From: Halorubrum sp. BOL3-1
GTDB lineage: Archaea; Halobacteriota; Halobacteria; Halobacteriales; Haloferacaceae
Direction: 5' to 3'
Length of the DNA stretch: 64,000 nucleotides
NCBI RefSeq assembly: GCF_004114375.1
Contig: NZ_CP034692.1
Span: forward strand, 62,001-126,000
The notes beneath the pieces are model-generated. The model was not told the DNA's origin, did not search any database, and worked only from the letters and a program-made list of their open reading frames with translations. Position numbers and translations under genes: made by a program. This document shows, one piece after another, positions 13,475-27,548 of this stretch (the stretch's first letter is position 1; each line of letters begins with the position of its first letter).

Positions 13475-13942
13475 CTATAAACACAGGCGGTGGCGCGTGC
13501 CTGCGAGCGACCGCCACCGGCGGCCGCGAGACAGCACGCGCGAGGGAGTCGGCCGCCGGAGCGAAGCGACGGCGGCCGACGAGGCTGGGGAGGCGTGAGG
13601 TGCGGTGCTGTGGCGGGGCGGGACTCGAAGGGGCAGTCGCGAGGCGGGCAGAGGCGACGTAAGGACCGCAATAAAAGAGCGACAGCGACTGAGTGAGGAC
13701 CGTGGTTCGAGACGCCTCTGGCGTCTCGTCATCACGAAAATCTTCGATTTTCGAACGACAGCGAGCGTCTGTCCGCCTCGCGGCTGGGGCTTCGGCGGTG
13801 TTCGCGTCGGTCTGCGATTTATAAATAGATCCACTCTTGTACAGCCGAGTGACTGGGGCTTCGGCGGTGTCCGTGCCGGTCGGCTGTTTATAAACAGAAA
13901 CGTACAACCGAGCGGGCGAGCCGTTGCCGGTCTACGCGTGAA
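13475..13942. other. Repeat-bearing intergenic region
   Basis: 468 bp without a convincing gene. Open frames on the minus strand here are Arg/Ala/Pro-rich and look like the spurious proteins that haloarchaeal intergenic repeats generate. The right part holds the two-copy 69-bp repeat at 13784-13921. Confidence 0.55.
13784..13921. repeat. Two imperfect 69-bp direct repeats
   Basis: CTGGGGCTTCGGCGGTG occurs at 13784-13800 and again at 13853-13869. Each copy continues with a variable GTCGG stretch, a TTATAAA(T/C)AGA box and a GTACA(G/A)CCGAG tail, giving a 69-bp period. Each unit carries a TATA-like core, so this may be duplicated promoter-type DNA. Confidence 0.65.
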
Positions 13943-19390: not shown

Positions 19391-20014
19391 TTACACCGTC
19401 CCGCGATCGGGTGCCGGAAGTTCCTCGGCAACAGCAACGTCATGTCCGGCGGCGTACCCGTTCAGCCTGGCAGCGATCGCCGACTCGCGCAGCTCGTCGT
19501 CGCCGTATCCGGCGGCCTCAAACGCGTCCATGAACGAGGAGACCGACCGGGGCTTGTACTTCTGGTGGTAGTCTTCGGCGGGGTAGAAACGCGAGAGCCG
19601 TTCGATGCGCGTTCCGATCCCATCGGCGGTGAGTCCCCGTGTCGTGAGAAAGTCATCGAGGACTGCCCGCTGATCCTCCGTCGCAGCGAACACGATATTC
19701 TGGTACTGTGTCTTTCTGGTCTGGTGCTGTGGGTTGTGCGAGTCGAACACCTGATTCAGGAGGTCTCGGTACGGTATCGTGTCAGGGTCGAACTCGACTT
19801 GGAACACCTCCGTGTGGTCGCCTAACGCGTGATACGTCGGATCGATCTTTGTTCCGCCGGCGTAGCCGACGCGGGTGCGAACGACGCCGTCCATCGCCCC
19901 GAACTGGGCATCCGGCCCCCAGAAGCAACCGATCCCGAACGTCGCCGTGGCAGTCTCCGCGCCATCCATCGCACGACGGTCGTACTCGCGTATCTGCGTT
20001 CGTGTAAGCGTCAT
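19391..20014 (-). CDS. msrA: Peptide methionine sulfoxide reductase MsrA (copy 1)
   Basis: Reduces methionine-S-sulfoxide in proteins. 207 residues from ATG 20014 (a GTG three codons upstream is also possible). Catalytic motif GIGCFWGPDAQFGAMDGV has the single nucleophilic Cys within GCFWG. GYAGGTKIDPTYHALGDHTE and the HNPQHQTRKTQYQ segment are also typical. 82-90% similar by eye to the second copy at 32750, including about 135 bp of upstream DNA. It is the first gene of the lower-GC accessory region. Confidence 0.92.
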   Translation of the reverse strand: MTLTRTQIREYDRRAMDGAETATATFGIGCFWGPDAQFGAMDGVVRTRVGYAGGTKIDPTYHALGDHTEVFQVEFDPDTIPYRDLLNQVFDSHNPQHQTRKTQYQNIVFAATEDQRAVLDDFLTTRGLTADGIGTRIERLSRFYPAEDYHQKYKPRSVSSFMDAFEAAGYGDDELRESAIAARLNGYAAGHDVAVAEELPAPDRGTV

Positions 20015-20150
20015 TGGGGTCACCAGCCTGGAGAGTCGCCGAAGCGCGGGTCGTGGATCTCACCGCATCCACCACCAGTCAGGCTCGCAGCCGTATATAC
20101 TGCGTGTCGACATCCGTGCGCAGTCTCCGGCGGAAAGACACTCTCGGGGG
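19391..20150. repeat. msrA-containing duplicated segment, copy A
   Basis: About 760 bp, comprising msrA and about 135 bp of upstream non-coding DNA, recurs at 32750-33508 in the same orientation. Similarity stops near GGAAAGACA at the outer end of both copies. Confidence 0.8.
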
Positions 20151-20359
20151 ACGACACGCGCGCAAACCACCAAGGCTGCGTGTTAGAGAGACGTTTGCCG
20201 CACAAACTCGGAACACAGAGACCGAGATCGAAGCGACAGGCGACCCTCAAGTCGATCTGTCCACCTGACTCACTCGAACCCAATTCGACCGACAGCTGAC
20301 GCGGCCGCGGCAGCCCCCTCGACATAATAGGCGTTCGGTGCGGCGCTCCTCGGACTCGT

Positions 20360-20828
20360 ATGCCGATAGCTACTGGTGATTCCGTGACCCATGAGTACAC
20401 GGGACGACTCGACAATGAAATGCGTTCGATACCTCCCGGGAATCCGTCGCCGAGGAGACGGGTCTCGCCGAGGCCCGGCCCGATCGAGAGTACGCGCCGC
20501 TGACGGTCGAGACCGGTGACGAACGGGTCATCGAAGGGATAGAAGAGGTACTGATCGGCCTCGAGGATGGGGAGACAGACACGCTGACGATCCCGCCTGA
20601 GAATGCCTACAGCGAGCCCAGCGACGACCGATCCAGGAGTTCGAGACTGAGGAGTTCAAAGAGATGCTCGGCGGGTAGACGCCCCAAGAAGGTGCCTATC
20701 TCAAGGCCCAAAACGGCAGCCAAGGCGAAATCGTCCACGTCGACGAGGAGGTCGTCCGAGTGGAGTTCAACCCGCGCCTCGCCGGCGAAACGCTGACCTT
20801 CGACATCAAAATTGTCGACGTCAACTGA
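20360..20828 (+). pseudogene. FKBP-type peptidyl-prolyl isomerase pseudogene (SlyD-like)
   Basis: Peptide pieces of a haloarchaeal FKBP follow one another in different frames. MPIATGDSVTHEYTGRLD starts at 20360. FDTSRESVAEETGLAE and VIEGIEEVLIGLEDGE follow after a frameshift near 20420. IQEFETEEFKEMLGG follows after a second shift near 20630. An in-frame TAG stands at about 20675, then the insert-in-flap end VVRVEFNPRLAGETLTFDI, closing at TGA 20826-20828. At least three lesions make it non-functional. Confidence 0.8.
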
Positions 20829-20934
20829 GATCGAACGCCGGCGGTGTCAGCGATCGGTGGTTTCGGCAGGGTCGGGAACTCGGTTCATCCTGTAATTTAC
20901 CGGCGTGGCCCCCAATTGAGAGTATAGCCCGAGT

Positions 20935-21369
20935 ATGGACAACCGAGACCCTCTCCAATCACTGTCAAATTCTCCCGGCAGGAGTCAGTTCATTCGGTGT
21001 ACCGCTTGTGAGTCTGCCCTCCGGTCACCGGGAAGAGAAAGCGTCTCGTTCCTGCTGCTCGACCAATTAACGATTCCACTCGTCGGGTGTGACAACCACC
21101 TCGAAGAGTTCTGTTCTCTCTGCGGGCTTGCGACCGAAGGTCGCGCCGAACTGCTCAACCACCGCCCGGCCGGCGGGATTAACTGTCCGAGTTGTCGTCA
21201 CGCACCGCACAAGCCACAACAACCGGTCATCCCAGTCGGGAACGGGGGGCTGGCGGTACTCGCATGCGCAACCCATCAGTCCGACATCCTCTCTCGGTTC
21301 CGCACGGGCCTACAGGTACGACAGCATCTCACTTCCTCAGTTGACGGGGTCTCCACTGACCGATACTAG
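20935..21369 (+). CDS. Cysteine-rich hypothetical protein
   Basis: 144 residues containing CTAC, CSLC and CPSC knuckles plus His residues (CRHAPHKP, CATH), suggesting one or two zinc sites. No family recognised. It lies in the low-GC stretch between the FKBP pseudogene and the regulator/TIR-like pair, and its C-terminal part is Ser/Thr-rich. Confidence 0.5.
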   Translation: MDNRDPLQSLSNSPGRSQFIRCTACESALRSPGRESVSFLLLDQLTIPLVGCDNHLEEFCSLCGLATEGRAELLNHRPAGGINCPSCRHAPHKPQQPVIPVGNGGLAVLACATHQSDILSRFRTGLQVRQHLTSSVDGVSTDRY

Positions 21370-21409: not shown

Positions 21410-21950
21410 TCAATCTAACTGGTCGAGTTCTCCCCGACGTTCTTGATGTATGATGCCACCGGCGAACAGCCGAAGTTTCGAAATGAGTTCTGACTCGGTC
21501 TCATATGTTTCTACCCGTAGGTCCCATCGCACCTGTACAGATCGTATCATCGCACTCGTGACATCGTCCTGATGAACGAAAATGAGCCGGTCACTGTGTG
21601 TTTCCGAAAGCGATTCAAGAATACTTCCGGCTTCTTCTCCGACACCGAAATTATGCCCGAGAAACGGCAAGATGAACGCAGTCGCATTGCTACACTGCGT
21701 GTATTTGATGCTCTGAGTCGCTGCGTCCACGTCATCAGTGTCTACGTCAACGTCAAGAGCGAGAAACGCGTTCGCTCCGGGTCTGATACGAAGCTCTGCT
21801 TGTACCCGTCGCAAGAGTGCCTGCGCCGCGTCGGTCTCTTTTTTTTTGAAACAATTGCCGGAGCGGCTCTGGGAGGTCCTCCACATCAATTTCCTGGCGC
21901 TCCTTCTCGCTGAGAATGTAGTTGAGGTTGAACGATTTGTATGTGCCCAT
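21410..21950 (-). pseudogene. TIR / deoxyribosyltransferase-like protein, frameshifted at A9 tract
   Basis: From ATG 21950 the frame gives MGTYKSFNLNYILSEKERQE up to LRQLFQKK. At a run of nine A (T9 on the plus strand, 21839-21847) one extra base separates it from the frame ending at 21410. Removing one base gives a continuous 179-residue protein. FILPFLGHNFGVGEEAGSIL (about residues 93-112) and RLIFVHQDD resemble the catalytic-Glu region of TIR / nucleoside deoxyribosyltransferase-like proteins, as in haloarchaeal DUF7509 (tentative). It is divergent from the HTH gene with 22 bp between starts. The lesion could be a real mutation, slippage-controlled expression or a sequencing error. Confidence 0.6.
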
Positions 21951-21972
21951 CAAGTAGAAGAGGTATCTTGCG

Positions 21973-22284
21973 ATGTACGCTGCCGTCGGGCGTCGTACCA
22001 GATACGAGATCCTCTACCGACTCGTTCACAGCGGAGACATGAGTCCCAAAGAACTAGACGACGCAATCGAGATCGATGACAGTACCCTCCACTACCACCT
22101 CAACAAGCTCGTTGATGCGAGTCTCGTCGAAAAACGTCAACATACGGAACGGGGCCAAGATGGCTTGTACGCGTACTACCGAGCGACCGTGTTCGGAGAG
22201 GTGACGCTCACAAACGGCGTCGACGAACTGATCCGCGGCGAGAAAGAGTTCGAGGCAATGTACAACAGTTCGACCGACCACTAG
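21973..22284 (+). CDS. Winged-helix (ArsR-like) transcriptional regulator
   Basis: 103 residues: AAVGRRTRYEILYRLVHSGD, then MSPKELDDAIEIDDSTLHYHLNKLVDASLVEK is a textbook wHTH with the recognition helix STLHYHLNKL, followed by a basic wing. Only 22 bp separates its ATG from that of the TIR-like gene on the other strand, so both promoters overlap and the regulator may control both. A 7-bp inverted repeat (CTGTCGA/TCGACAG, 22324-22342) lies downstream. Confidence 0.78.
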   Translation: MYAAVGRRTRYEILYRLVHSGDMSPKELDDAIEIDDSTLHYHLNKLVDASLVEKRQHTERGQDGLYAYYRATVFGEVTLTNGVDELIRGEKEFEAMYNSSTDH

Positions 22285-22742
22285 CGAGGAACCGTTTCTC
22301 AGAGGGGACGGCAAACATGGGTACTGTCGAAATACTCGACAGAAGAGACATACGCTCCCGCTGTATTCTGTATAGAGTGTCCCTCACCGGCCGAAGATTT
22401 CACTAGAGTCAAGAAATCGGACCCCCCACTACTGCTATGACGATTAGCGGTGGACGACAATTAGTTCGTTCAGACTATGTTACGACGTAGCTACTTCTCC
22501 TGTCTGCTCCACGGATAGTACCGACGTGTACAGGGGTCTCTCAGGATAGTACGCCGATCACCTGTACTGAGCGATTGGGGTGTAACACTATCAATTACTG
22601 AGTATTTCATCAAAGCCAAATTTTAGTGAAGCACAGCCTGCGGGCGGGAATTGCGTTGATTCTACTGGGATAGATTAGAATGATCTCTTGGCGGGCGGGT
22701 ATTACATACGACTACGCAGAAGTGGTGAGGGAGAATCCTGAT
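22285..22742. other. Gene-free AT-rich spacer
   Basis: 458 bp with no convincing gene. It holds the inverted repeat CTGTCGA-N5-TCGACAG (22324-22342), possibly a terminator or operator for the preceding regulator, and two GGCGGGCGGG-like G-rich patches near 22650 and 22695. Confidence 0.5.
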
Positions 22743-22816
22743 GGGCTGGCCAAGATTTGAACTTGGGGCCTGCTCCGTGTGAAGGAGCCGTCATAACCGG
22801 ACTAGACCACCAGCCC
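22743..22816 (-). tRNA. tRNA-Val (anticodon CAC)
   Basis: Reads on the minus strand as a complete 74-nt cloverleaf. The acceptor GGGCTGG pairs with CCAGCCC, and the anticodon stem GCTCC/GGAGC encloses loop TTCACAC, so positions 34-36 are CAC (Val, GTG codons). The T arm is CCAAG-TTCAAAT-CTTGG. CCA is not encoded and there is no intron. An integrase gene lies 330 bp to the right, so the tRNA is a plausible attachment site. No second copy of the tRNA 3' end was noticed in the window. Confidence 0.94.
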
Positions 22817-23148
22817 TTCAACAGACCATTGCTTGTACCGATAGTTAAATGGATTGGATTGGGCGTGGGTCAGTTGGTTCGTCGTTAGAATTATTTGTGC
22901 TTCAAACGAGTCGAACGAGGTACCCGGGGCTCGAAACAGTATCGTTCATTATTTGTACGAATACGAACATAAACGTCTCTCCGAAAACCAGAGATAAGTA
23001 GTTATAATCCATCAATACGGTCGAAAGTGCCACTTCAAGTTCGTGAAAGGTGCGTGTCAAAAGGGGCGGATACTCCGCGTACTACGCGGCTTCCCTTCTC
23101 TCCCGGTTTCGCGCGAGAGACGTCTTCTAACGGGGGTCTGTGACAACG
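22817..23148. other. Spacer between tRNA-Val and integrase
   Basis: 332 bp, AT-rich in the centre, with a TTATAATCC box near 23000 and several GAACGA/TCGTTC motifs that might be recombinase arm sites (inference). No gene seen. Confidence 0.45.
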
Positions 23149-24141
23149 ATGACTACGGACAAAGACGATCTCGAACCCATCGAACCGGAGACAGCGCAGG
23201 GGCTGTTCTTGGATCACAAGGCGACCGACTGTACCGACTCGACCGTTCAGAACCATCGGTACCGTCTGAACCCGTTCGTTCGGTGGTGCGGTGAGAACGG
23301 AATAGACAACCTCAACGAGCTCTCTGGCCGGGACATACAGCGCTACCGGCTCTGGCGGAAGGAGGACGGCGACCTGAATAAACTCACGCTCCGCATGTAT
23401 ATGTCCACGCTCCGCGTACTCCTGAAGTGGGCGGGGTCGATCGAGGCGGTGCCGCAGAACCTGTACGACAAGGTGATGGTCCCGCGCGTCCGCCCGGAAG
23501 AGCGGAAGCGCGACGAGATGCTCGACGCCGAGGACGCACAGGAGATCAACTACTTGTCGAAGTACGAGCACGCGTCGAGGGAGCACGCGGTGATGGCGCT
23601 GCTCTGGCAGACGGGGACCCGCGTCGGGGCCGCGCACTCGCTCGACGTGGGCGACATCTTCATCGACGAAAACTACGTTCAGCTGATCCACCGACCGGAC
23701 CAGGGGACGACCCTGAAGAACGCCAAGAGCGGCCAGCGACCCGTCGCGCTCACGCCCGCCGTCGCTGAAGTGCTCGCAGATTACATCGGAACCCATCGGA
23801 AGGACGTGACCGACGAGCACGGCCGCGACCCGCTGTTCACGACCGCGCACGGCCGGATACACGGGAACACGATTCGCCGGCTCACGTACCGGGTGACGGC
23901 CCCGTGCTACCGGAGAGCCGACTGCCCGGACTGCGCCGCCGACGAGGAGAAGTGCCCCGAAGCTGTCAGCCCCCATGCGATTCGTCGGGGGAGCATCACG
24001 CACTTCCTCACCAGCGACGTGCCCGTCGACGTAGTCAGTGACCGGATGAACGTGAGCCGGAAAGTCCTCGACGAGCACTACGACAAGCGGTCCGAGGAGG
24101 TGGAGATGGAGCAGCGCCGCGGCTACCTCGACAACATCTGA
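23149..24141 (+). CDS. Tyrosine recombinase / integrase
   Basis: 330 residues from ATG 23149 (GTG three codons upstream is possible). The N-terminal SAM-like core-binding domain is DSTVQNHRYRLNPFVRWC; the catalytic domain contains Arg-I in WQTGTRVGAAHSLD. Box II is SPHAIRRGS (H-x-x-R) and the nucleophile Tyr is in LDEHYDKRSEE. A four-Cys insert (CYRRADCPDCAADEEKC) just before box II probably binds zinc, as in other haloarchaeal integrases. It likely drives the mobile region next to tRNA-Val. Confidence 0.92.
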   Translation: MTTDKDDLEPIEPETAQGLFLDHKATDCTDSTVQNHRYRLNPFVRWCGENGIDNLNELSGRDIQRYRLWRKEDGDLNKLTLRMYMSTLRVLLKWAGSIEAVPQNLYDKVMVPRVRPEERKRDEMLDAEDAQEINYLSKYEHASREHAVMALLWQTGTRVGAAHSLDVGDIFIDENYVQLIHRPDQGTTLKNAKSGQRPVALTPAVAEVLADYIGTHRKDVTDEHGRDPLFTTAHGRIHGNTIRRLTYRVTAPCYRRADCPDCAADEEKCPEAVSPHAIRRGSITHFLTSDVPVDVVSDRMNVSRKVLDEHYDKRSEEVEMEQRRGYLDNI

Positions 24142-24201
24142 CGGCCGGGCCGGCCGCGGTCGCGCTCGTATTTTTCAACGAAGACGCCGCGAGAGTCCCT
24201 C

Positions 24202-24834
24202 GTGTTCGACCCGCAGCACGCCTTCGTGGACCCGCTGCTCGCTTGGTACGAGCGGAACGGCCGTCACGACCTGCCGTGGCGAGAGCCGGAGCGGACGCCG
24301 TTCGAGCTACTGCTCGCGGAGATACTGTTACAGCGGACGACCGCCTCGGCGGTCTCGGGGGCGTACCGGCCGTTCGCGGCCCGGTATCCCGCGCCGGAAA
24401 CCGTCGCGGTCGCAACGACCGACGAGATCAGAACCTACGTCGCGCCGCTCGGGCTCGTGAAACGCGCGGCGTACGTACGACGATGCGCACAGCAGATCCT
24501 CGCGCGACATTCGGGCGACGTACCCCGCGAGTACTCCGAGCTGATGGAGCTTCACGGGGTCGGTGAGTACACGGCGCGGTCGGTCCTGATACACGTTCGA
24601 GGGCTCGGTATCGCGGCCGTCGACACGAACGTTCGCCGACTGCTGTCCCGGTTCTTCGACGTGAACCCCGACCGGAGCCGGATCGCCGTCATCGCTGACG
24701 CGCTGGCTCCTTCGACCGGGAGCGACGATTTCCAACACGCGATGCTCGACTTCGCGGCCGAAGTCTGTACCGCCGGTTCACCCGGATGTCCCTCCTGTCC
24801 GCTTCGAGAGCCCTGTGCGAGTTCTGAAGGCTAA
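24202..24834 (+). CDS. MutY/Mig-like HhH-GPD DNA glycosylase with Fe-S cluster
   Basis: Base-excision glycosylase of the endonuclease III/MutY/Mig branch. 210 residues from GTG 24202, beginning MFDPQHAFVDPLLAWYERNG and HDLPWRE as in MutY. The HhH is ELHGVGEYTARSVL, and the catalytic-Asp region is GIAAVDTNVRRLLSRF. C-terminal cysteines C-x6-C-x2-C-x5-C (EVCTAGSPGCPSCPLREPC) bind [4Fe-4S]. MutY's C-terminal 8-oxoG domain is absent, so it is closer to the T/G-mismatch (Mig) or short MutY-like group. It sits between two integrases. A relic of a close homologue lies at 49477. Confidence 0.86.
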   Translation: MFDPQHAFVDPLLAWYERNGRHDLPWREPERTPFELLLAEILLQRTTASAVSGAYRPFAARYPAPETVAVATTDEIRTYVAPLGLVKRAAYVRRCAQQILARHSGDVPREYSELMELHGVGEYTARSVLIHVRGLGIAAVDTNVRRLLSRFFDVNPDRSRIAVIADALAPSTGSDDFQHAMLDFAAEVCTAGSPGCPSCPLREPCASSEG

Positions 24835-24916
24835 TCCACAATCGAAACGACAGCTCGAGACCTCTCCGCTCCGCGATGACCGTGCCCCTCTCGCGTGAGG
24901 AGGACTCGTCACCCGC

Positions 24917-26287
24917 TCAGGCGGGAACGATCCCGAGCAATCCGAAGTTCACCGCGAGCATCGCCACGAAGAGCGCGTACCCGGCGACACCTTTCGCGGC
25001 GCGGCCCGGGCTCGGAGTCGTGATACCGTTCTCTCCCGGCGACATCGCTTCGAGTTCCTTGTGAAGTCGGCCGGCGGTCTGGGACCCGAGTGCCGCGGTC
25101 CCCGCGGCGGCAGCCGTCCCCGGACCGACGACCGCCGATGGACTCCCGCCGAATTCGCTGAGGCTCAGCTGGTCGTCGTCCGGTTCCTCCGTCGGCTCCT
25201 GCGTTTCGGTGGTCTCGCCTCCGGAGACCACTATTTCGGCAAGTTCGGAGGGGACTGCGCCGTCGGAGTCGGATGCGGCCTCCGGAGTCCCGTCGTCCGA
25301 TTGGAGACGCAAGAGCGCCTGCGGGTCGATCATTCCGTCCTCGTCGATCAGAACCTCCGCAACCTGGTTCGCGTTCGGGGTCTCACTCTGGTCTCCGTAG
25401 CCGTCGAACAGCTTCTCGTACACCTTGAGCCGGTGCTTTCGCTTCCGCTCCTTGCTGCGGAGGTCGTAGTGCTTGTTCAGTATGGGAACCGAGACGTCGA
25501 CCCCGTCGGTCAGCAGCTCTTTCGCCACCCCGCGATCGATCTGCGTCTCTATCGAGTACCGGCGGAGCGGGTGGGGACTGTGACTCGACGGACACTTGCT
25601 CGCGTGCTCGTTATCGGCGGCGTCACACGCGTCCGGATCCCGGTCGTGCGGGCAGTGATTCCCGTAGATACAGGGACGAGTGAGTTTGTACAGGTCCCGA
25701 CGGATCGCGTCCGTATCGGGCCGTCCGTACCTCGTCGTAAGCAACGGTTCCCGACCGTACCGATCGGTGACGTCGTGCCGGTCCGGGTTGTCCATGTAGT
25801 CGCCGATCAGCTCTGCCAAGCCGATAGGAATGTTCACCTCTCGTTCTCCGTCGCTCTTGTTTTTCAGCGGAGTCCCCTTCTCATCATCCTCATCTTCCGG
25901 ACGGTGGTAGAACTTAATCACTTGCTTGCCGAGGTCCACATCGATGATATCGATCGCTCGGGTCGCCCCGACGCGAAACCCGATCTCCCTAATAAGCTTA
26001 AATTCGACGTGGCGACGAGACGCTGGTTCGTACGTCTCCAAGTACTCTATCGCAGCTTCGACCTGTTCGGGCGTCGGCTTCTCGTAGTTCACGTCTTCGT
26101 CGTCCGGAACGTTCGGGACCGGCGTCTTATCTGGCGTCCCGGGTGAAACGGCCTCAATCCGCACACAGTAGACGAGAAACCGGCGGAGATTACTGAGGAG
26201 ACCATTGAGACTTATAATGCTATTATCGCTCGTATTCTTACACCAGCTCTTGTACTCCATGAGCTGTCGACCGTTGATTTCGTTCAT
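24917..26287 (-). CDS. Tyrosine recombinase with C-terminal membrane segment, N-terminally shortened
   Basis: 456 residues. Catalytic elements are REIGFRVGATRAID (Arg-I), SPHPLRRYSI (H-x-x-R) and LNKHYDLRSK (Tyr). A Cys/His insert (CIYGNHCPHDRDPDAC) precedes box II as in the first integrase. A 150-residue acidic tail follows and ends in a hydrophobic helix AGYALFVAMLAVNFGLLGIV near the C-terminus, which is unusual for a recombinase. The start MNEINGRQLMEYKSWC corresponds to mid core-binding domain of the relative at 23149, so about 45-50 N-terminal residues are missing where the IS1595-type element begins. Probably a 5'-truncated gene. Confidence 0.78.
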   Translation of the reverse strand: MNEINGRQLMEYKSWCKNTSDNSIISLNGLLSNLRRFLVYCVRIEAVSPGTPDKTPVPNVPDDEDVNYEKPTPEQVEAAIEYLETYEPASRRHVEFKLIREIGFRVGATRAIDIIDVDLGKQVIKFYHRPEDEDDEKGTPLKNKSDGEREVNIPIGLAELIGDYMDNPDRHDVTDRYGREPLLTTRYGRPDTDAIRRDLYKLTRPCIYGNHCPHDRDPDACDAADNEHASKCPSSHSPHPLRRYSIETQIDRGVAKELLTDGVDVSVPILNKHYDLRSKERKRKHRLKVYEKLFDGYGDQSETPNANQVAEVLIDEDGMIDPQALLRLQSDDGTPEAASDSDGAVPSELAEIVVSGGETTETQEPTEEPDDDQLSLSEFGGSPSAVVGPGTAAAAGTAALGSQTAGRLHKELEAMSPGENGITTPSPGRAAKGVAGYALFVAMLAVNFGLLGIVPA

Positions 26288-26348
26288 ACGCTCTTCTGTA
26301 GGAGATTGTTGATACTGCTGAGCTGTCGCTGTCGAGTCGAAGAGGACA

Positions 26349-26370
26349 AGGACACCGCGTCAGCGGTGTC
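26349..26370. repeat. 9-bp hairpin at the IS/integrase junction
   Basis: GGACACCGC, loop GTCA, GCGGTGTCC is a perfect inverted repeat immediately before the transposase start at 26379 and behind the truncated integrase N-terminus. It could be a subterminal hairpin of the element. Confidence 0.6.
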
Positions 26371-26378
26371 CGACACAG

Positions 26379-27548
26379 ATGATCCCGCTAGATGCGTTTG
26401 GGTCGGAATCGGTCGCAGCGGACCTGTTACAGCAGGTTCGCTGGCGTGACGGTATTTCCTGTCCTCGCTGCCGTTCTGACCGAACGGTCAGAAACGGCAG
26501 CTACGGGCAATTTCAGCGGTATTTCTGTAAGGATTGCGACCGCACGTTCAACGGTAAGACCGGCACGATCTTCGCTCACTCAAAGATCGCACTTCGTAAA
26601 TGGTTGTTCTCGATATACGCGTTTTGCGGTTTAACACGAGTTTCAGGCAGTTACAGTGCGAAATCGAGGTCACCTACAAAACGATCCGCAGGCGTGTCGA
26701 GCGCTTCACTAGTGGTCGTCTCAGAGATTGAAAGGATAGATTGGACGGGTACATAGTATACTCAGAGAGCTGTAAAGACTCTATTATTCAATTTAGAGGC
26801 GTTATAGAGTATCTATCGAACTAGTGATGTATGTTCTTCTGGGACAAAATATCGGGTAGCAGAGGTGCTAAAACGTCTAATTTCGGCACTAGTATATAGA
26901 TAAAGGATATCCTCGTAAGTGATCTCTCAGTCGCTTGGAGACGCCCGCAATTCGTCGATCACAGCCACCTCTTCAAGATCTCCGACTATCACTACCGAAG
27001 CGCTCGACGCGCCGTCACTCGATCTCTGTGGCCCGGTTGAAATTGACGAGTTCTACGTCTCTGACGGCATGAAAGACTGCGAGCGCGACCGCTGGTCGCG
27101 CTCTCGCGGCCTCTCTCGACGCGGGCGCGGAACATTTGAACAGGACAAGCCGCCTGTGTTTGTCCTCGTGGATCGCGGTACCGAGCAGCGGTACATTGTA
27201 CCAGCAAAACCCGCAGACGAATCGCCGGTCCGGCTCCTGCTGGCTGACCGCCAGCAGGAGCCTCTGCCGGTCTATACCGACGGATTTTGCGCGTACGATC
27301 CACTTGAGAAAGACGAGAGCTTCGACCGCGAATACGTCGTTCACGGAGACGGAGAGTACGTCAACGACACGATCCACGTGAACACGTGCGAGAGCCACAC
27401 GTCGCTAGCCCGACGGTGGCTCTCGCCGCATCGAGGCATCTCAAAAGATCGCCTCACACAGTATTTCCGAGCGTTCCAACTCAGACGAGAACTCTACCGC
27501 AAGCCCGGACGAGAAGCGCTCAAACACGCTGTCAAAGCAACTCTCTGA
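26379..27548 (+). pseudogene. IS1595-type transposase, frameshifted and interrupted by a MITE
   Basis: The N-terminal zinc ribbon CPRCRSDRTVRNG and CKDCDRTFNGKTGTIFAHSK, then ALRKWLFSIYAF, is the IS1595 (ISH4-like) start. A one-base deletion near 26625 shifts the frame; the correct continuation LRQLQCEIEVTYKTIRRRV is readable in the next frame. The catalytic half (LCGPVEIDEFYVS, VYTDGFCAYDPLE, SPHRGISKDRLTQYFRAFQL) resumes after the MITE. So two independent lesions inactivate it. The element's ends were not resolved; it probably spans about 26.29-27.56 kb. Confidence 0.82.
26712..26992. mobile_element. 281-bp IS630-related MITE flanked by TA
   Basis: Sits inside the transposase gene, bounded by TA at 26710-26711 and 26993-26994. 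Removing it with one TA rejoins the coding sequence ERFT/EALDAPSL. The left end begins GTGGTCGTCTCAGAGATTGA; the complement of the right end begins GTGATAGTCGGAGATCTTGA. Those ends match the IS630-type element at 56275-57379 (GTGATCGTC / GTGATAGTCGAAGAATTTG). It has no coding capacity. Confidence 0.8.

Follow-up and report, generated by a model that had tools for sequence, protein, structure and literature searches.

The window analysed here, a 64-kb stretch of Halorubrum sp. BOL3-1 (host genome of 3.67 Mb in 4 contigs, 99% completeness), carries a winged-helix regulator on the plus strand that faces a gene of the DUF7509 family (PF24349) on the minus strand (Table 1). The regulator, already called as such from the sequence in a first-pass annotation, matches both HTH_20 (43.9 bits, cut-off 27) and HTH_5 (29.7 bits, cut-off 22), and its reading frame of 103 codons (21973-22284) opens at the sole remaining ATG. 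The same annotation had placed the minus-strand gene out of frame at an A9 run, and this was borne out: both halves match DUF7509, far above the family cut-off of 27 bits, and the break lies in the run. The C-terminal part ends in the stop codon at 21410-21412, shares 88-90% DNA identity with the Halorubrum relatives G163 and G257 by BLAST and retains the NxGxxxE motif of the family, its invariant Glu included. The N-terminal part lacks codons 1-22 and profile positions 1-13. With the frame broken and these codons gone, the window holds no continuous full-length DUF7509 reading frame.

Table 1. Features of the regulator-DUF7509 locus in the window.
Feature	Position	Strand	Evidence
DUF7509 pseudogene, C-terminal part	21410..21838	-	PF24349 8.7e-65, 218.6 bits, profile positions ~58-206
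A9 tract (T9 on the plus strand), frame-break site in DUF7509	21839..21847	-	absent from all relatives
DUF7509 pseudogene, N-terminal part, from LFYLMGTYKSF	21848..21962	-	PF24349 2.1e-12, 47.5 bits, profile positions 14-61
Deletion junction, net 256 bp missing compared with relatives	21962..21963		BLAST split at query 553/554
Winged-helix regulator remnant (ArsR/MarR-like, HTH_20)	21963..22284	+	Pfam HTH_20 2.3e-11

In other haloarchaea the two genes form a constant pair. A relative of the regulator adjoins DUF7509 in 30 of 30 loci from the order and in 75 of 75 loci from named genomes, with homologues down to 34% identity, so that the check proposed in the first-pass annotation, whether homologues always sit beside this regulator, had a positive outcome at every locus fetched. 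The genes are divergent in 74 of the 75; the remaining locus, in Haloarcula sebkhae, has the regulator downstream and co-directional. Protein distances of DUF7509 and regulator are correlated (r = 0.87, against a permuted maximum of 0.23), and a conserved segment at the regulator N terminus, LLPExSxLSLxEY, is kept even in distant pairs. DUF7509 homologues were detected in 142 of the 293 order-level genomes, in Haloferax volcanii and in 35 plasmid records; a phage origin of the pair was ruled out, as none of 50,697 phage records matched. Outside genus-level synteny no third gene is common to the loci. Neither Pfam nor the papers searched describe a function for DUF7509, and our literature search found no paper mentioning the name; the intact unit looks like an undescribed system.

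The starts of the two genes in 55 named loci are separated by about 98 bp (range 78-112 bp). This interval contains two conserved elements. One is the TATA-like TATTTAAAA, which precedes the DUF7509 start by about 26-36 bp, a distance that would fit a haloarchaeal TATA box; the other, closer to the regulator, is GGCTTGAnAA...CTAAG. It is likely that the regulator controls DUF7509; in intact relatives it would bind GGCTTGAnAA...CTAAG and repress both promoters until a signal comes. Most likely, the intact module would be an autoregulated HTH protein controlling a nucleotide N-glycosidase-like enzyme.

The enzymatic side of this proposal derives from predicted structures and a conserved Glu motif. 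Two AlphaFold2 models of intact DUF7509 were obtained, one from 48 homologues headed by that of H. kocurii (pLDDT 80.5; two of the five models were poor) and the other for a minimal 166-residue family member that is divergent from the first (pLDDT 83.3). Both are five-stranded alpha/beta sandwiches, and in Foldseek searches of the PDB both had DNPH1 as the top match (7.1e-5 and 1.1e-4, probability 1.0), followed by MilB, NDT and TIR domains intermixed with other flavodoxin-like folds, with moderate TM-scores of about 0.4-0.6 on the query. DNPH1 is a 5-hydroxymethyl-dUMP N-hydrolase and MilB an hmCMP N-glycosidase. Nucleoside deoxyribosyltransferases were also among the best named matches to DUF7509 in a viral library. 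In 48 sequences the motif N127-x-G129-x-x-x-E133-x-G has invariant E133 and G129 and a near-invariant N127, and the site equivalent to DNPH1 D80 is mostly Ser (S107), with D102, T105 and Q106 invariant nearby, according to an hhalign alignment that is itself uncertain.

Sequence searches alone place DUF7509 in neither the NDT nor the TIR families, the best scores being 13.8 bits for PF05014 (NDT; cut-off 28.8) and 16.8 bits for TIR_2 (PF13676; cut-off 28). A profile search against solved structures returned nothing meaningful, and hhalign against haloarchaeal NDT/DNPH1 proteins gave weak, non-significant probabilities of 6% and 0.8%. As the profile-profile link is weak, the fold claim rests on the predicted structures and the Glu motif, from which we consider it very probable that DUF7509 has the NDT/MilB/DNPH1/TIR superfamily fold. 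The TIR/deoxyribosyltransferase-like fold guessed in the first-pass annotation is thereby supported for the intact family; the fold link of PF24349 may be on record in a database already, for example as a Pfam clan. In its mode of action DUF7509 is probably comparable to the N-glycosidases with this fold, yet it is not filed as NDT or TIR; that it is an active N-glycosidase has about an even chance. The invariant Glu of N-x-G-x-x-x-E would attack the sugar of a nucleotide, which would be NAD or a nucleoside monophosphate that is modified or in excess.

The same models bear on the proposal that the intact module serves abortive infection through a TIR-type NADase and not nucleotide metabolism. 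It is conceivable in that the TIR domains of RRS1, RPS4, PdTIR and AbTir are among the structural matches, that the catalytic Glu is retained whereas the Asp of NDT/DNPH1 is not, and that the pair is patchily distributed, occurs on plasmids and is recurrently lost. Nevertheless DNPH1, MilB and NDT outrank TIR in Foldseek, the TIR_2 score stays well under its cut-off, and the module comes with no match of DUF7509 to the PADLOC models, no defence neighbours and no sensor gene, leaving this proposal unlikely. We give somewhat less credit still to a toxin-antitoxin reading in which the regulator would be the antitoxin. The pairing is obligate, with no DUF7509 lacking an adjoining regulator in 75 loci, whereas the regulator can survive alone; but the genes are divergent rather than operonic and the partner is a plain DNA-binding protein, as is typical where a repressor controls an inducible enzyme.

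Compared with these intact relatives, the BOL3-1 copy has suffered two lesions. BLAST of the window DNA, covering 52 genomes of the genus, aligned it to G257, G163, G272 and G290 as two pieces that abut at the junction in the window and lie 256 bp apart in the relative. By alignment and arithmetic the lost interval takes in the first 66 bp of DUF7509 (codons 1-22), all 98 bp between the genes and about 92 bp at the start of the regulator, or about 31 codons. In 30 relatives from the order the intact regulator start is about 34 residues longer than that of the window. Both conserved intergenic elements belong to the deleted interval, and a search for GGCTTGAnAA...CTAAG across the window did not find it. 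No microhomology beyond 1-3 bases was seen at the deletion ends. One event was thus a net 256-bp deletion that removed both 5' ends together with the promoter. The first-pass annotation had given the starts as 22 bp apart; the start-like ATGs are indeed close, about 19 bp apart, but only because the deletion joined the genes head to head, and they are not the true starts, whose spacing of about 98 bp in relatives also rules out a native 22-bp divergent promoter. Having lost the promoter region and their true 5' ends, the two genes can no longer yield their native products.

It could be argued that DUF7509 alone is dead and that a short regulator, begun at ATG 21973, continues to be produced and to work at other promoters. 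Its reading frame is open, the winged helix is intact with few substitutions, it could be made from another promoter, and full-length regulators persist without DUF7509 in two other Halorubrum genomes (G281 and G228). On the other hand, promoter, operator-like element and the LLPExSxLSLxEY segment have all been deleted, and a stop at about 21954 lies in the same frame six codons before the ATG. A functional short regulator is therefore, in our view, rather improbable.

The second lesion is the tract itself. Within the 64 kb, no homopolymer other than this T9 run reaches 8 bases (0.04 expected). At this site relatives have a T-rich but interrupted stretch of frame-preserving length, from which the window differs, by alignment, in a length that is not a multiple of three; between codons 50 and 77 the longest A run in 75 homologues is 5, and in most it is 2-3. 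The tract is private to the BOL3-1 genome and is no switch of the family, and programmed frameshifting at A9 was ruled out, as relatives are single-frame without it. The second event was a change in length of the T-rich stretch to T9 that broke the frame.

A sequencing or assembly error in an organism whose pair is intact is very unlikely: A9 tracts are prone to error, but the lesions are two and independent, one of them a 256-bp deletion unrelated to homopolymers, the sequence bears signs of relaxed constraint (below), and the assembly is nearly complete in few contigs. Phase variation, in which slippage at A9 would switch a TIR/NDT-like immune effector on and off as the first-pass annotation suggested, has practically nothing left to stand on: the fold guess for the effector holds and the window's only long homopolymer sits exactly at the frame break, but a phase-variable gene has its unstable tract in an otherwise intact, promoter-bearing gene, whereas here the tract is conserved in no relative and the deletion has taken the DUF7509 start codon with its first 22 residues, the promoter that both genes share and the regulator's first quarter, so that slippage could not restore DUF7509 expression.

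The substitution pattern bears signs of relaxed constraint. Pairwise dN/dS among relatives is mostly 0.03-0.11, indicating strong purifying selection, as compared to 0.23 for the DUF7509 C-terminal part and 0.32 for the regulator between the window and its nearest relative, G257. Synonymous to nonsynonymous changes in DUF7509 are 6:6 on the window branch and 17.5:6.5 on that of G257, small counts in both cases; for the regulator the corresponding ratios are 3:5 and 7:3 with G163 as outgroup and 4:3 and 4:5 with G272, counts that are few and depend on the outgroup. At about 90 near-invariant DUF7509 positions, 5 are changed in the window, compared with a mean of 1.2 in relatives. As constraint on DUF7509 is only mildly relaxed, this pattern suggests that the loss of the module in BOL3-1 is recent. 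No second DUF7509 and no close copy of the regulator were found elsewhere in the BOL3-1 genome; with the 5' ends of both genes missing and no further copy to replace them, the module has been lost in this strain.

Taken together, the locus is almost certainly a pair of pseudogenes hit twice, with both genes dead. The fallback reading of the first-pass annotation, a pseudogene, thus stands, but it has to be widened: both genes are affected, and a second and larger lesion, the 256-bp deletion, accompanies the frameshift. Our overall explanation, to which we assign a probability of roughly 0.85, is that the window carries a degraded copy of a conserved regulator-DUF7509 module whose intact form would be a regulated N-glycosidase-like enzyme.

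Loss of the module recurs within the genus, in the genomes G281, G228, G311 and G317. In the first two, both Halorubrum (loci L119 and L122), regulator and promoter are intact, DUF7509 is gone and a repeated element occupies its expected start; the same repeat is present in the window at 13478-13805 (region 13478-13830). In G311 the start of DUF7509 is truncated and the regulator broken, and G317 retains only a remnant of DUF7509. Beyond these, Halostagnicola sp. A-GB9-2 has a regulator interrupted by an in-frame stop, and its DUF7509 is unusually diverged, with more near-invariant positions altered than in the window; the two genes represent a second, independent decaying pair.

The surroundings of the pair were also inspected. 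A defence island was ruled out, as no such signal was present among 76 flanking genes; one is Mrr-like, and the proteins that matched Cas12f are probably of the TnpB transposon type. In H. trapanicum the pair directly follows cinA, whereas the window has about 2.2 kb between them (19391-21369 compared), with an MsrA-like gene, recognized by eye, and a cysteine-rich, zinc-ribbon-like ORF at 20935-21369. On the other side, a tRNA-Val (cac) at 22742 adjoins two tyrosine-recombinase-like ORFs, one confirmed by Pfam (23140-24141, plus strand) and one by eye (24917-26287, minus strand); a MutY-like glycosylase lies at 24202-24834 and a transposase-like ORF pair, called by eye, at 26379-27548, and the region from 22742 to 27548 consists of remains of integrated elements. 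Integration at this tRNA of an element that carried the pair was rejected, as the window contains no second copy of the tRNA 3' part.

About half of the sampled haloarchaeal genomes contain DUF7509, always beside one regulator and with its function undescribed, and the homologue in H. volcanii makes its activity, its control and any antiviral role directly testable. A tentative thought is that the intact HTH-DUF7509 pair is a self-contained, often-lost haloarchaeal system, in which a repressor responsive to infection or damage would govern an N-glycosidase acting on NMPs (or NAD). By destroying modified nucleotides, the enzyme would serve antiviral defence or nucleotide sanitation in a DNPH1/TIR-like manner. 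If so, the window is one natural loss of that system.

Several described systems resemble the intact module. The window copy itself matches DUF7509 in both parts but is frameshifted and lacks the first 13 profile positions. The catalytic nucleophile is E104 in DNPH1 and E103 in MilB, with motif residues S98 in DNPH1 and S97/G99 in MilB (PMC10603095, PMC4081090). E133, N127 and G129 of DUF7509 are spaced like DNPH1 S98/E104 and MilB S97/G99/E103, and DUF7509 shares with both a glycine-rich first strand and S/N-x-G-x-x-x-E with an invariant Glu. In contrast, identity to either is only about 10-23%, the general-acid Asp80 of DNPH1 has no conserved counterpart in the weak hhalign alignment, the insert that follows strand 1 is longer in most DUF7509 proteins, and a dedicated regulator accompanies every one of them. 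Three haloarchaeal DNPH1-like loci (L144, 1501-1806; L145, 1501-1800; L146, 1501-1803), possible archaeal nucleotide-pool sanitisers of which L146 matches DNPH1/Rcl at 1.5e-30, read PSLGVGYE[IL]G where many DUF7509 proteins read DNLGVGIE.G. With NDT, DUF7509 shares the predicted flavodoxin-like fold and the Glu nucleophile motif, but it falls below the PF05014 cut-off and the hhalign comparison is not significant. TIR domains (RRS1/RPS4, PdTIR, AbTir) match the DUF7509 models with TM-scores of up to 0.67 on the target, whereas DUF7509 is below the TIR_2 cut-off and has no sensor or adaptor domain and no defence context. Finally, a small winged-helix protein facing its putative target over a shared promoter recalls the divergent ArsR-type regulators, from which the DUF7509-linked regulator differs by a conserved N-terminal segment that lies outside the Pfam HTH models.
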